A stretch of 21,027 nucleotides of DNA from a virus, in IMG/VR virus record IMGVR_UViG_3300045972_000676, positions 1 through 21,027 of that record; one strand, 5' to 3'. The notes under the pieces were generated by a model. It was not told the DNA's origin. It saw nothing but the letters and a program-made list of their open reading frames with translations, and did no database searches. Each line of letters starts with the position of its first letter. Within the stretch, counting starts at the first letter, position 1. Shown here piece by piece: positions 9,913 to 15,268 of this stretch. The translations under genes and the position numbers were made by a program.

Positions 9913-12900
9913 ATGTTCGATCTCAACACTTGCAGCCCCCCGCCGCCCGGAGCCGTTCTGGGCCATTGGTTCCCGTCCTCGGGCGAGGATCATGATTTTG
10001 ATCTGGACGAAATCCGCGACCGATTGGCCGATACCGCCCGCGACTGGCTGCCGGGACTGTTCCCCAACGCCCGCAAGCAGCCAGACGGCAAGTCCCTGCG
10101 CTGCGCCAACCTGCGCGGCGATCCGCCCCGCAATCTCGGATCGTGCGTTCTCGACCTGTCCGGCCCACACGCCGGAACCGGCTTCGATCACGCCACCGGC
10201 GAACGCGCTGGCTCCATCGATCTGATCAAAACCGCCACCGGGCTGACCGGGCGCGATCTGTTCAAGGAAGCGGCGCGATTGGCCCGCATGGATAATCCGT
10301 TTCCACGTCCGCCATCGGCCAAGCCGCCACGCGACAAGGATCAGGACCACGCGCTGGAGATCGCCCGCATCATCGGTGGCTGCGTGCCGCTGGCCAGCAC
10401 GGTCGGCGAGACCTACCTGCGTGCCCGCGGCATCGGCGACCCGCGTTCGCCCGATCTGCTGTATCATGACGATCTCACCGATTTCGGCGGGCGACGCGGC
10501 TGGCCTGGGTTGGTGGGGATCGTCCGCGACGGTGCCGGCCATCCTGTCGGCGGCATCCACCGGACCTTCCTGCTCGACGATGGCAGCGGCAAAGCCCCAC
10601 CCGGCAAGAAAATGCTGGGGGCAGTCGACGGCGGCAGTGTGCGTCTCGCTCCCATGCCCGCTGATAGACACCTGGGCGTGGCCGAGGGCGTCGAGACAGC
10701 ACTGTCGGCGTGGACGATCTTCGGCATCCCCACCTGGGCGGCATTGTCGGCCAACGGCGTCCGCCAGTGGCAATGGCCCGAAGGCACCAGCCGCATCACC
10801 ATTTTCGCCGACGCAGGCGAGGCCGGTCAGCAGGCCGCCGCCATCCTGGCCGACCGGCTGAATGCGGCCGGAATCCCCTCCACCATCGTCTCGCCCCTAC
10901 ATGGTGACGACTTCAATGACGATCTGCGTAAGGGCGCTGTCGCCGCACATTATGCCGCACATTATATTGGGAAGCCGGCCGCCGAGGAGGTTCCGACCTT
11001 CGAGAGCCTGATGGCCCTGACCGAAGCCCTGCAAGAAGGAGACGTAATCGCGCTGGGGCGGCTCTATGCCCAGGTCGCTGCCGCCAAGCTGGAAGGCTTC
11101 GAGCAGGATACGATTCTGGCGGCAATCAAAAAACGGACCAAGATCGGCATCTTAACGTCACGGCGACAGGTGGTATCGTTGCGCCAAGCCCTCACCGGAA
11201 CCGCCGCCCCAGATGCCGACGCAGGCGAGGAGGTTGTTTTCGACGACGAGGTGACGCAGCTGGCAGCCACCTATCCGCTGCCCCGAGCCGACGGTGTCGA
11301 TCTGCGCCTGTGCCGTTCATCGCGGTCCAGTGAGATTATGGTTCATCGCAGCATGGGACACGGCAAGGACGGACGAGCCATGTGGCAGGCAGTAGCCAGT
11401 CCCTTCGGCATTTCGGCTCGGCTGCGCTATCTCGACCAGGACGATTCCTACGGCCTGCGCGTCGTCGTCCGCGACATGCATGGACGCCCACGGGTGGTGG
11501 ACGTCCCCCGTTCCGCCATCGCCCAGCAGGGAGCACAGGAAATCCGCGCCGCCCTGTTCGCGGCCGGTCTGCGCACCTGCGCCGATGGCGACCAAGTGGC
11601 CTTGATGTTGCTAAAAGCCGCCAATCCCCAGGTCGAAATCCTGGTGGTCAGCCGTCCCGGCTGGCACCGGCTGGAGGGCCGCGATCACCCCGTGTTCGTT
11701 ACCCCGGCGGGGCAGGCCATCGGCGATGCGGCAACGCTTGAACTCGCCACCAACGCCCGATGTGAATCTGTCCGCGGCAATCTCGACGGCTGGAAGGCAG
11801 CCGTAGCGGCGGCGGCAACCGTCACCGGCTGCCCCCATTTCCTCCTTGGCGTTCTGGCAGGGTTCTCGGGCGTGGTGCAGTCGCTGGCCGGTTTGGACAG
11901 TTGTGGCCTCAATCTCAGCGGCTTGTCGTCCAGCGGCAAGACCACAGCGCAAAAGCTGGCGGTGTCGGCCTGGACTTCCAGCAGGATCGGCGGGGGACTA
12001 CTGCAATCCATGCGCTCGACCGAGAATGCCGTGGAAGTCATCGCCCAGGCCGCCAGCGGAACCATTCTGGCCCTGGACGAACTGGCCCATGTTGATGGCC
12101 GCACCATCGCCAAGCTGATCTATGCGATTGCCGGCGGTCAGGGAAAGGCGCGCATGACCGCAGGCGCCATGCTCAAGCAGCGCTATGCCTGGTCGACCTA
12201 TGCCCTGCTGTCCAGCGAATGCTCCCTGGAAGAAAAGGTGCGCGCCGATGGCGGTGCCTGGATTGCCGGCATGGCGGTACGCATCGTCGACGTGGACGTT
12301 ACCGACGTGGATCGCGCCGTCCCGGCCCCCACCATGCGGGCCGTCGCGGGCATCGACAGCCACTATGGCCATGCAGGGCCTGCCTTCGTCGAGCAGATCA
12401 TCGCCGTGGGCCTGCACCAGACGCCCGAGGTTCTCCGTGAGCGCATTCTTGCCGAGGCCCGCCGACTGGCCGGCGACAGCACCGATTCGGCCCTTATCCG
12501 CGCCGCCACCTGTCTTGCCGTGCCCTTGGTCGCAGGCCACTTGGCACAAAAATTCGGGCTGATTCCTTCGTTCATCGACATCGAGGCACCGATACGGTGG
12601 GCGTGGACACGCTTCCAGAAATCGTCCGATGCCGAGGCGCTGGAACCCGCAGACCAAGTTATCTCTATGTTGCGGGCCTGGATCGCCGAACGCTGGGACG
12701 TCACCATCAAGGAGATCGACGCGGGCGGTTACGGATTTGACCGTAAGATCAACAACCGTGAAGCCCTCGCCTGGTACGACCGCGACACCATCTACATTCC
12801 GGCCCACCGCCTCCGCGAAGCCGCCGGTGAGACGCTAAAGGCCGTCCAGATCAGCAAGATCCTGATCGACCGCGACATGCTTGCACGACGCCACAACAAT

Positions 12901-13014
12901 AAGCGGGCCGTCATCCGGTTCGTGCCCGGCATCGGCCGCATCGACGCCTATGCGCTCAAACGCTCAGAACTTGGCCGTAGCGGGCACTGGTTCGATGAGA
13001 ACGAAGAGCCGTAA
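9913..13014 (+). CDS. TOPRIM primase / DUF927 helicase fusion
   Basis: A 1033-residue replication protein. Residues 55-120 form a primase-like N-terminal region, and 253-340 a TOPRIM domain (VAEGVETALSAW, IFADAGEAGQ, GDDFNDDL) like those of phage and plasmid primases. Residues 490-780 are the DUF927 helicase domain with Walker A SGLSSSGKTT (669-678) and Walker B ILALDELAH (718-726). The C-terminal 200 residues are helical and could bind DNA. It should prime and unwind at the phage origin. A GGGGAG ribosome-binding site precedes the ATG. The short gap (21 bases) to the helicase gene places it in the same operon. It ends at a convergent junction with the YozE-like gene. Confidence 0.92.
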   Translation: MFDLNTCSPPPPGAVLGHWFPSSGEDHDFDLDEIRDRLADTARDWLPGLFPNARKQPDGKSLRCANLRGDPPRNLGSCVLDLSGPHAGTGFDHATGERAGSIDLIKTATGLTGRDLFKEAARLARMDNPFPRPPSAKPPRDKDQDHALEIARIIGGCVPLASTVGETYLRARGIGDPRSPDLLYHDDLTDFGGRRGWPGLVGIVRDGAGHPVGGIHRTFLLDDGSGKAPPGKKMLGAVDGGSVRLAPMPADRHLGVAEGVETALSAWTIFGIPTWAALSANGVRQWQWPEGTSRITIFADAGEAGQQAAAILADRLNAAGIPSTIVSPLHGDDFNDDLRKGAVAAHYAAHYIGKPAAEEVPTFESLMALTEALQEGDVIALGRLYAQVAAAKLEGFEQDTILAAIKKRTKIGILTSRRQVVSLRQALTGTAAPDADAGEEVVFDDEVTQLAATYPLPRADGVDLRLCRSSRSSEIMVHRSMGHGKDGRAMWQAVASPFGISARLRYLDQDDSYGLRVVVRDMHGRPRVVDVPRSAIAQQGAQEIRAALFAAGLRTCADGDQVALMLLKAANPQVEILVVSRPGWHRLEGRDHPVFVTPAGQAIGDAATLELATNARCESVRGNLDGWKAAVAAAATVTGCPHFLLGVLAGFSGVVQSLAGLDSCGLNLSGLSSSGKTTAQKLAVSAWTSSRIGGGLLQSMRSTENAVEVIAQAASGTILALDELAHVDGRTIAKLIYAIAGGQGKARMTAGAMLKQRYAWSTYALLSSECSLEEKVRADGGAWIAGMAVRIVDVDVTDVDRAVPAPTMRAVAGIDSHYGHAGPAFVEQIIAVGLHQTPEVLRERILAEARRLAGDSTDSALIRAATCLAVPLVAGHLAQKFGLIPSFIDIEAPIRWAWTRFQKSSDAEALEPADQVISMLRAWIAERWDVTIKEIDAGGYGFDRKINNREALAWYDRDTIYIPAHRLREAAGETLKAVQISKILIDRDMLARRHNNKRAVIRFVPGIGRIDAYALKRSELGRSGHWFDENEEP

Positions 13015-13019
13015 GGCTC
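13006..13019. terminator. Short hairpin at the convergent gene ends
   Basis: GAGCC (13006-13010), a GTAA loop and GGCTC (13015-13019) overlap the stop codons of the primase and the YozE-like gene. The stem is only 5 bp and has no T-run, so it is at best a weak bidirectional terminator. Confidence 0.3.
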
Positions 13020-13239
13020 AGGCTCCCGCTTGCCGACGCAGGGCGGCGCGGTATCCCTGCCACACTGCGTGCGCCGCCTTGATGGACTCCTCACAAGCGC
13101 TTCGATTCAGCAGATAGCGCTTTAGTTCCGGCCACGACTGCACGTCGGGGAAGCGCCGGTCACGCCGTGCGTCGCCGACGAAATCGCCCTGCGGATTATC
13201 CCCACAGCGTCTCCGCTCAATGTATTCCCGGAAGGTCAT
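13018..13239 (-). CDS. YozE-like SAM-fold small protein
   Basis: A 73-residue protein that fits the YozE/SAM-like pattern: MTFREYIERRRCGDNPQGDF, then a short aspartate/arginine turn, RRFPDV, SWPELKRYLL and a final AHAVWQGYRAAL helix. The frame is open a further 53 codons upstream, but the ATG at 13239 has a GGAGGTGG ribosome-binding site and starts the conserved part. The last four bases before this ATG and the codon itself belong to a copy of the array octamer (GTGGCCCA at 13246-13239), so a protein that binds the array would cover its start. It runs against the early operon. The role is unknown; a small DNA- or protein-binding part is possible. Confidence 0.7.
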   Translation of the reverse strand: MTFREYIERRRCGDNPQGDFVGDARRDRRFPDVQSWPELKRYLLNRSACEESIKAAHAVWQGYRAALRRQAGA

Positions 13240-13694
13240 GGGCCACCTCCACCAGGATCGGATGGCCCACGATAATTGCGCCCGGCACCGCGACCAATCA
13301 AGAAGTTCTTTAAAAGTTCTCCGTCCGCAAGCCGCAGCTTGGGCCACCAGCGCCTCTATTGGGCCACCAGCACCCATCGCCGCAGGCCAGTGGGCCACCT
13401 GGACACCACCCGGTGGCCCCGGATTTTTCGAGTAAAAACAAAGCGATGACGCGGTTGTGGACCACTTGGGCCACCGTGGGCCACCTCGCCGACACGGGGT
13501 CTGGGTAACACGAAAAAATATTTTATCCGCGGACCCAAAAATTATTTTTTCAGGGTCGCGAAGAATTTATACCGGCGAAGGTGGCCCACGGTGGCCCACT
13601 ATCTATAATCTATTGTTTTTAAATAATAAAATAGTGGGCCACCCTTGGAATCAGGTGGCCCACTCGGTGGCCCACTGGCTATGATGGTGGCCCA
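13239..13694. repeat. Array of 12 octamers TGGGCCAC / GTGGCCCA
   Basis: Exact copies of TGGGCCAC start at 13239, 13340, 13360, 13391, 13467, 13477 and 13635; exact copies of the reverse form GTGGCCCA start at 13581, 13591, 13655, 13667 and 13687. One-mismatch copies lie at 13262 and 13413. The left six all face one way and five of the right six the other, with the AT-rich core of 13505-13580 between. Several neighbours are 10 or 20 bp apart, which would place sites on one face of the helix. The block is non-coding: the reading frames through it translate the repeat itself. It lies just after the primase/helicase gene, so I read it as a candidate replication origin with iterons; it could also be a regulatory array. 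Confidence 0.75.
13505..13640. other. AT-rich core of the array with hairpin, possible unwinding element
   Basis: Two AT-rich blocks, about 13509-13552 and 13600-13634, stand out in this GC-rich window. CGCGGACCC (13528-13536) and GGGTCGCG (13553-13560) form a stem with one bulge around a loop almost all A and T. TTATCCGCG (13523-13531) matches 7 of 9 bases of a DnaA box, and TTATCCCCA (13196-13204, in the YozE-like gene) 8 of 9. This would suit a DNA unwinding element. Confidence 0.45.
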
Positions 13695-13726
13695 TTCTCG
13701 ATTTTGTCCTGTCCCGGCGATTTCGA

Positions 13727-13755
13727 TTGATTGCACGATTCGCCGACCCTAGACT
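13727..13755 (+). promoter_or_regulatory. Predicted promoter of the resolvase gene group
   Basis: TTGATT (13727-13732) and TAGACT (13750-13755), each 4 of 6 to consensus, are 17 bp apart, and the resolvase ATG lies 48 bases after. It stands just right of the last array octamer, so proteins on the array could affect it. Confidence 0.35.
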
Positions 13756-13802
13756 CCCCCTCGACCAAAGCCGGAGGCCCACTGATTTCGTGAGCCTCCA
13801 CC

Positions 13803-14270
13803 ATGACCACCATTCTCGCCCTTGATCTGGGATCAAAAACCGGCTGGGCCATGCGCCTGGCCGACGGCGCTGTTGTTTCCGGCACCATGGGATTCAAGCC
13901 CGGCCGATACGAAGGCGGCGGTATGCGCTTCCTTCGCTTCCGGTCCTGGCTCGACAATCTCGAAGCCGGGGCCAAGACGATCGATCTGGTTCAATTCGAG
14001 GAAGTGCGCCGCCACGCCGGGACCGACGCAGCCCATATTTATGGCGGATTCCTCGCCCATCTCGCCGCTTGGTGTGAACTCAAGCACATCCCCTATCAGG
14101 GCGTGCCCGTCGGCACCATCAAGCGCCATGCCACAGGCAAGGGCAATGCGGGCAAGGACGCGGTGATCGCCGCCATGCGGGCACACGGCTTCAATCCCGA
14201 AGATGACAACGAAGCCGACGCCCTGGCGATCCTGTTCTGGGCCATCGACACCCAAGGCGGTGTGCGATGA
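13803..14270 (+). CDS. RuvC-like Holliday junction resolvase
   Basis: A 155-residue nuclease of the RNase H fold that should cut branched DNA before packaging or during recombination. The first strand, ILALDLGSKTGWA (4-16), carries the catalytic D8; FEEVRRH gives E66/E67; the basic GTIKRHATGKGNAGKDAV (104-121) and the late acidic pair in DNEADALAI (D135, D139) complete a RuvC-like active site. The length is about that of RuvC and phage resolvases of this type. It begins a three-gene group with overlapping ends, about 110 bases right of the octamer array. No ribosome-binding site is clear. Confidence 0.85.
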   Translation: MTTILALDLGSKTGWAMRLADGAVVSGTMGFKPGRYEGGGMRFLRFRSWLDNLEAGAKTIDLVQFEEVRRHAGTDAAHIYGGFLAHLAAWCELKHIPYQGVPVGTIKRHATGKGNAGKDAVIAAMRAHGFNPEDDNEADALAILFWAIDTQGGVR

Positions 14271-15083: not shown

Positions 15084-15112
15084 AACTTCGCTAGCGACAG
15101 CCATAAAAACTA

Positions 15113-15263
15113 GGTTTCCACCAAGGTTTCCAGTTTCCACTCAGAAGGCGCGCAAGTCCAAGGACGGCGCGCCTTTCGCATGTCTGCGCAGGTGGAAACC
15201 ACCCCTGGAAACCTGACTGGTTTCCACCCGCCGGTTTCCAGTTTCCACCAGCCCAGGTTTCCA
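15113..15263. repeat. Array of nine GTTTCCA repeats, candidate cosB
   Basis: GGTTTCCA starts at 15113, 15125, 15219, 15233 and 15256; its reverse TGGAAACC at 15193 and 15206; and AGTTTCCA at 15132 and 15240. The 16-mer GGTTTCCAGTTTCCAC is repeated exactly at 15125 and 15233. The block is non-coding and ends five bases before the methyltransferase ATG. Lambda cosB R sites, bound by the small terminase subunit, carry a similar GTTTCC core, so this may be a terminase-binding region. Repression of the methyltransferase is the main alternative. Confidence 0.7.
15145..15175. other. 9-bp perfect hairpin inside the GTTTCCA array
   Basis: AAGGCGCGC (15145-15153) and GCGCGCCTT (15167-15175) pair fully, with GTC/GAC possible in the loop. 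It divides the array into a left group of three and a right group of six repeats. It may be a leader-RNA terminator, or a bend comparable to the IHF site of lambda cosB. Confidence 0.5.
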
Positions 15264-15268
15264 CCGTC

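Follow-up and report, generated by a model that had tools for sequence, protein, structure and literature searches.

A two-armed repeat array follows a primase–helicase gene

The window analyzed here, the whole 21,027-nt stretch, is a 21 kb viral record. A TOPRIM–DUF927 primase–helicase gene lies near its middle, with a Sak4-like gene and a Dda-like helicase gene upstream; a serine recombinase and a CI-like repressor are encoded farther left, and a GpA terminase at the right end. Downstream of the primase–helicase gene we found a dense repeat array, flanked and built as follows.

9913–13014, plus strand: primase–helicase gene (DUF7146, Toprim_3, DUF927 and C-terminal winged helix), the presumed initiator (Pfam DUF927 2.5e-35, Toprim_3 1.6e-25)
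13018–13239, minus strand: gene for a YozE-like SAM-fold protein of 73 aa, between the helicase gene and the array (Pfam YozE_SAM_like 2.8e-7 on a longer ORF)
13239–13485, plus strand: left arm, six TGGGCCACC iterons, the last two a pair 10 bp apart (exact matches)
13512–13551, no strand: AT-rich stretch with runs of A and T that would form part of the melting region (sequence; AT 0.60 in the 13520 bin)
13554–13560, plus strand: core motif GGTCGCG, kept where the iterons of relatives differ (comparison with relatives)
13580–13694, minus strand: right arm, minus iterons at 13580–13588, 13590–13598, 13654–13662, 13666–13674 and 13686–13694, and a plus iteron at 13635–13643 (exact matches)
13596–13635, no strand: most AT-rich 40 bp (82.5% AT), including TATTGTTTTTAAA, kept in Magnetospirillum relatives (sequence, relatives)
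13803–14270, plus strand: RuvC-like Holliday junction resolvase gene, right flank of the presumed origin (PHROG 159, 4.9e-27)

The array occupies the intergenic gap between the minus-strand YozE-like gene (13018–13239), whose start codon is touched by the first unit, and the RuvC-like gene (13803). The original prediction described 12 exact octamers with two near copies, the left six facing one way and five of the right six the other. Exact matching recovered all 12 copies of TGGGCCAC/GTGGCCCA on the plus strand (13239, 13340, 13360, 13391, 13467, 13477, 13635) and minus strand (13581, 13591, 13655, 13667, 13687), each extended by a C to the nonamer TGGGCCACC (12/12), and their arrangement across 13239–13694 is ++++++--+---, as described. 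One-mismatch near copies of the unit lie at 13261–13269 and 13412–13420, and the palindrome TGGTCCAC/TGGACCAC at 13457–13465 is a further near copy in the left arm. The unit is close to the odd palindrome GTGG[C/G]CCAC, so what gives it an “orientation” is mainly the central base together with the outer C. Units in tandem pairs are about one helical turn apart, at 10 or 12 bp in the window, and 9 bp is the commonest spacing in the family. The densest 8-mer cluster of the window contains 13 copies in 456 bp, compared with a maximum of 3 to 5 in 40 dinucleotide shuffles, and the nonamer occurs only twice in the window outside the array (1464, 7035).

Two details of the earlier description needed adjustment. 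An AT-rich stretch (13512–13551) does separate the arms, although the most AT-rich one (13596–13635) falls within the right arm; and the array does follow the primase–helicase gene, with the small YozE-like gene in between. An Rfam search of the array returned no family, and a terminator-like site at 13664–13633 was rejected, being a pair of array units.

The array keeps its place while its unit changes

The homologues we collected come from Magnetospirillum, from other Rhodospirillales and from Rhizobiales, in contigs both viral and bacterial. An array is present at or near the same place in every full-length relative examined, which answers the original prediction's question of whether homologous phages have one. 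When 8-mers were ranked by clustering without prior choice of a unit, the most clustered one lay 3′ of the gene for the helicase in 22 of 24 homologues; the array at this place is degenerate in the two exceptions, L214 and L231. The unit itself is lineage-specific and has been switched array-wide at once, reading TGGGCCACC/GTGGCCCA, GTGGCCAC, TGTGGCCACA, GTGGCCCC, GGGGCCACC, CTGGCTAC or GTGGGAAA. Among the listed relatives, all but L219 and L231 have a GGTCGCG, GATCGCG or AGTCGCG motif in the space separating the arms, and the core is weakly AT-rich (52–60%) in the rhizobial relatives. Locus L001 at first seemed to have no array; from the type of its protein we expected GTGGCCAC units, which did turn up 2.5 kb downstream, on the far side of an insert. 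That insert brings about 2.3 kb of other genes (L001:10120–12450) between the helicase gene and the array, and the YozE gene there is shortened.

The neighboring genes are less constant. The RuvC-like gene was detected in 34 of 39 loci, and the YozE gene, confined to Magnetospirillum loci, does not belong to the conserved module. In Paramagnetospirillum caucaseum SO-1, a sibling phage encodes terminase, portal, head, tape measure and tail proteins; its head and tail genes are thus complete, which makes the lineage one of ordinary temperate siphophages rather than satellites.

Array density elsewhere, a check proposed with the original prediction, was examined in the host genomes of two relatives, where the array proved not to be dense at other sites. 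Both of these Magnetospirillum genomes, searched whole (4.5 and 4.9 Mb), have paired units at the array only; single nonamers number 161 and 210, the reversed control giving 119 and 144. The sibling phage contigs G003–G006 (37–49 kb) hold one unit cluster each, and no second cluster of the P4 crr kind was found in these four. A pair-pattern scan of viral contigs yielded mainly isolated chance or unrelated repeats; at least 4 copies within 500 bp occurred only in L092, L097, L100 and L106, besides L031, which is the L005 contig. The suggested search for a GC-skew signal gave no support for an origin, since skew in the four sibling phage contigs tracks the coding strand.

Several further observations were made in these comparisons. 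Many phage contigs (L142–L207) match the primase–helicase only at approximately residues 1–430, the TOPRIM half; their C-terminal half is probably something else, suggesting that the helicase/origin-binding half has been exchanged. Sister prophages with two different origin types share a single record in L005 and L001 (IMG 2894460714; L208 and L211, strain SS-4), and likewise L002 and L004 bring both types into one host genome record (IMG 2645727833), as if matching origins were avoided within one host. The window also contains a second two-armed array, of GGTTTCCA(CC), at 15111–15265, flanked by the DUF6362 gene and a ParB_N-methyltransferase gene; its arms enclose the inverted repeat GGCGCGC...GCGCGCC. 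L005/L208 have GGTACCAC-type units at this position, and this array too seems to have undergone a concerted unit change.

The primase–helicase ends in a predicted winged helix resembling the C-terminal domain of SaPIbov1 Rep

Profile comparison with the PDB matched the helicase half of the protein to SCCmec Cch (5dgk, 2e-16) and SaPI Rep (8tch, 2e-9). We then considered the C-terminal domain and two codons within it.

12610–13011, plus strand: C-terminal winged-helix domain, residues 900–1033, the presumed iteron-binding domain (AlphaFold2 model, pLDDT 79)
12895–12897, plus strand: codon 995 (Asn) in the wing, N with unit base C and D with unit base A
12919–12921, plus strand: codon 1003 (Phe) in the wing strand, F or H with C-type units and Y or W with A-type units

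The domain of 134 residues forms a winged helix in the AlphaFold2 model. A PDB sequence search with this domain alone returned no match; the best structural match of the model is SaPIbov1 Rep 453–558 (8tch, Z 10.7), followed by TcpK (Z 9.3–9.6) and Cch (Z 7.7). The P4 origin-binding fold 1KA8 is not among the matches listed for the domain, an absence that proves nothing. The C-terminal winged helix is the best candidate for the iteron binder. This agrees with one of the binders originally suggested, the primase–helicase; of the other two, the YozE-like protein occurs only within the Magnetospirillum clade, and there are array-bearing loci that lack DUF6362. As universal partners we rejected YozE, DUF6362, the small protein at 14267 and RuvC, each being missing from some array-bearing loci. 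The DUF927 helicase is present at all array loci, partly by construction, as the loci were found through that helicase.

Two wing residues covary with base 7 of the unit

Read on the GTGGC strand, units have C at base 7 in the group of the window and in one rhizobial group, and A in the others. A whole-protein scan of 26 loci showed that residues 995 and 1003 alone divide C-type from A-type units without overlap; in the gap-free helicase half, 2 of 578 columns separate the unit types, 290 of the 578 being variable. Both residues fall in the wing hairpin of the model, with model residue 96 in the loop and 104 in the following strand. At the nucleotide level, position 1 of codon 995 is the only separating column in codons 445–1033. 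No silent site separates the types, which argues against mere hitchhiking; linkage drag as the sole cause of the covariation was rejected on this ground, and further because, at codons 945–1045, relatives of the same type are no closer to the window than those of the other type.

In a helicase tree that left out the C-terminal domain, the unit type changes four times, and at least three of these changes are forced by well-supported branches. Residues 995 and 1003 follow the unit switch in every independent pair, the three to four independent switches being too few for significance in a sign test. L248 serves as a natural experiment: outside the domain it differs consistently from its C-type sisters at five of 460 residues, yet both its wing and its entire array have gone over to the A type. 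The end of the gene and the array may have been exchanged together by local recombination in L248, in which case the domain end and the array would still travel as a unit. The arrays of L246 and L253 are degenerate and do not show the rule cleanly.

A specificity code between wing and iteron is well supported, though not proven. In its simplest form, Asn at 995 would read C and Asp would read A, with residue 1003 as partner; concerted switching would have recurred, and sister prophages would have mutually blind origins and so could coexist. We regard this simple version as possible rather than probable.

The array is very probably a phage replication origin

The original prediction named the array a candidate phage replication origin, and the position, the arms, the conservation and the kinship with SaPIbov1 Rep all support it. 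The position, the inverted arms with an AT-rich core, the lack of such clusters elsewhere, an array that is kept while its unit is not, and the Rep kinship fit an origin. Copying of the prophage DNA very probably begins at the repeat cluster, a start site of the kind known from staphylococcal pathogenicity islands. We are highly confident of an iteron origin at which the winged helix of the TOPRIM–DUF927 helicase would bind, with facing loading, melting and priming. For binding, ring loading, melting, priming and the direction of replication, we infer the following course. The C-terminal winged helix would bind the 9-bp iterons, reading them at least partly via its beta-wing. Initiators on the two inverted arms would load helicase rings face to face, one on either side of the AT-rich/GGTCGCG core; the core would melt, and the fused TOPRIM domain would prime in place.

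We weighed three other readings. An array of operators, bound by a regulator that controls the YozE and RuvC genes and uninvolved in replication, would account for the way the repeats fill a divergent intergenic region up to the YozE start codon. Arrays nonetheless persist outside the Magnetospirillum clade, where YozE is absent, and in L219, L231, L268, L269 and L271, which have no RuvC; a scan of 12950–13850 found no sigma-70-like promoter, and the covarying residues belong to the helicase, so that we consider this reading very improbable. Phage P4 has a second site, crr, for its initiator, and by this precedent the array could be an origin-linked control site at which initiator binding sets copy number, initiation taking place elsewhere. 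The single unit cluster in each of the four sibling contigs speaks against it, as do the fixed core and the AT-rich stretch between the arms, leaving it only a slight chance.

A partition (parS-like) or packaging site is scarcely credible. The ParB_N-methyltransferase gene 1.5 kb away and the terminase genes 5 kb away would favor it, but that methyltransferase has its own, different array and was undetected in many array-bearing loci, and arrays also follow the DUF927 gene in plasmids without terminase. Each flanking gene is thus absent from some loci that keep the array, and the DUF927 helicase never is, which makes all three readings less likely than a replication origin.

A probable PICI-type origin in complete prophages and plasmids

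In SaPI Rep, the C-terminal domain recognizes an iteron origin directly downstream (PMC7581432). The PICI origin, in which two iteron sets flank an AT-rich region 3′ of the initiator gene, drives plasmid replication and was held to have a layout unique among known replicons (PMC6092414). As in SaPIbov1 and the EcCICFT073 pri-rep-ori, the presumed origin of the window family lies 3′ of the initiator gene (directly after it in 22 of 24 homologues, and in the window separated from it by the YozE gene); two iteron sets surround an AT-rich region in the window, AT being weaker in rhizobial relatives; and the initiator, like SaPIbov1 Rep, is a DUF927-type helicase with a C-terminal DNA-binding domain, here a predicted one, and is related by profile and by structure. 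Unlike those satellites, the window family resides in complete siphophage prophages and plasmids, its primase is a TOPRIM domain joined to the helicase in one protein, its core GGTCGCG is fixed, and a small gene intervenes in one clade. PICIs are satellites without structural genes of their own, whereas the sibling phage has them and the window encodes a GpA terminase; the origin is therefore PICI-type, and the element no PICI. The origin type is known from PICIs, and what is new here is the variant in complete prophages and plasmids.

Other systems share parts of this arrangement. The P4 alpha protein, acting at ori and crr, likewise joins TOPRIM primase, helicase and a C-terminal winged-helix domain, origin-binding in P4 and predicted to be so here, and the P4 winged helix binds ori repeats (cited in PMC4234260). 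It differs in that the helicase of the window is of the DUF927, Cch/SaPIbov1 Rep type, that the unit is unlike that of P4, and that sibling phages lack a second unit cluster. SCCmec Cch is also a DUF927 helicase (5dgk), and the isolated C-terminal domain of Cch2 binds direct repeats downstream of its gene, although that site consists of three 5-nt iterons and the Cch2 helicase family is different. TcpK at the pCW3 oriT has a similar winged helix, whose beta-wing reads tandem 9-nt repeats in the major groove (PMC6137059), but it is a free-standing conjugation protein and no initiator.

We surveyed DUF927 genes in 289 alphaproteobacterial genomes and in plasmid and phage collections, obtaining 29 loci. 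A significant array lies within 500 bp downstream of the gene in 16 of them, with units that include GGTGGTAC, TGTTACAA, CGGTTACA, GTTGTCTA and GGGGAACA; the 16 include the window family itself (L285, L286) and units recur (GGTGGTAC in both L271 and L282), so that they represent fewer than 16 independent lineages. Among the 29 loci, no array was found upstream, where upstream sequence was present, or in the last 500 bp of the gene, and 13 distant loci had no detectable array. Arrays of GGGGAACA in Pseudomonas phage phiAH14b (L269), GGTGGTAC in Skermanella plasmid pSR-7 (L271) and GGTGTGAC in M. nodulans pMNOD05 (L268) follow the DUF927 gene and are likely unannotated origins.

Complete prophages of Magnetospirillum and of other Alphaproteobacteria thus share the layout with plasmids, and it follows over half of the surveyed DUF927 genes, which marks it as a general replicon type. 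The two-residue covariation makes it testable how an origin can take on a new word although a dozen copies have to switch at once. If the code holds, sister prophages in one cell would acquire mutually blind origins and hence could coexist.
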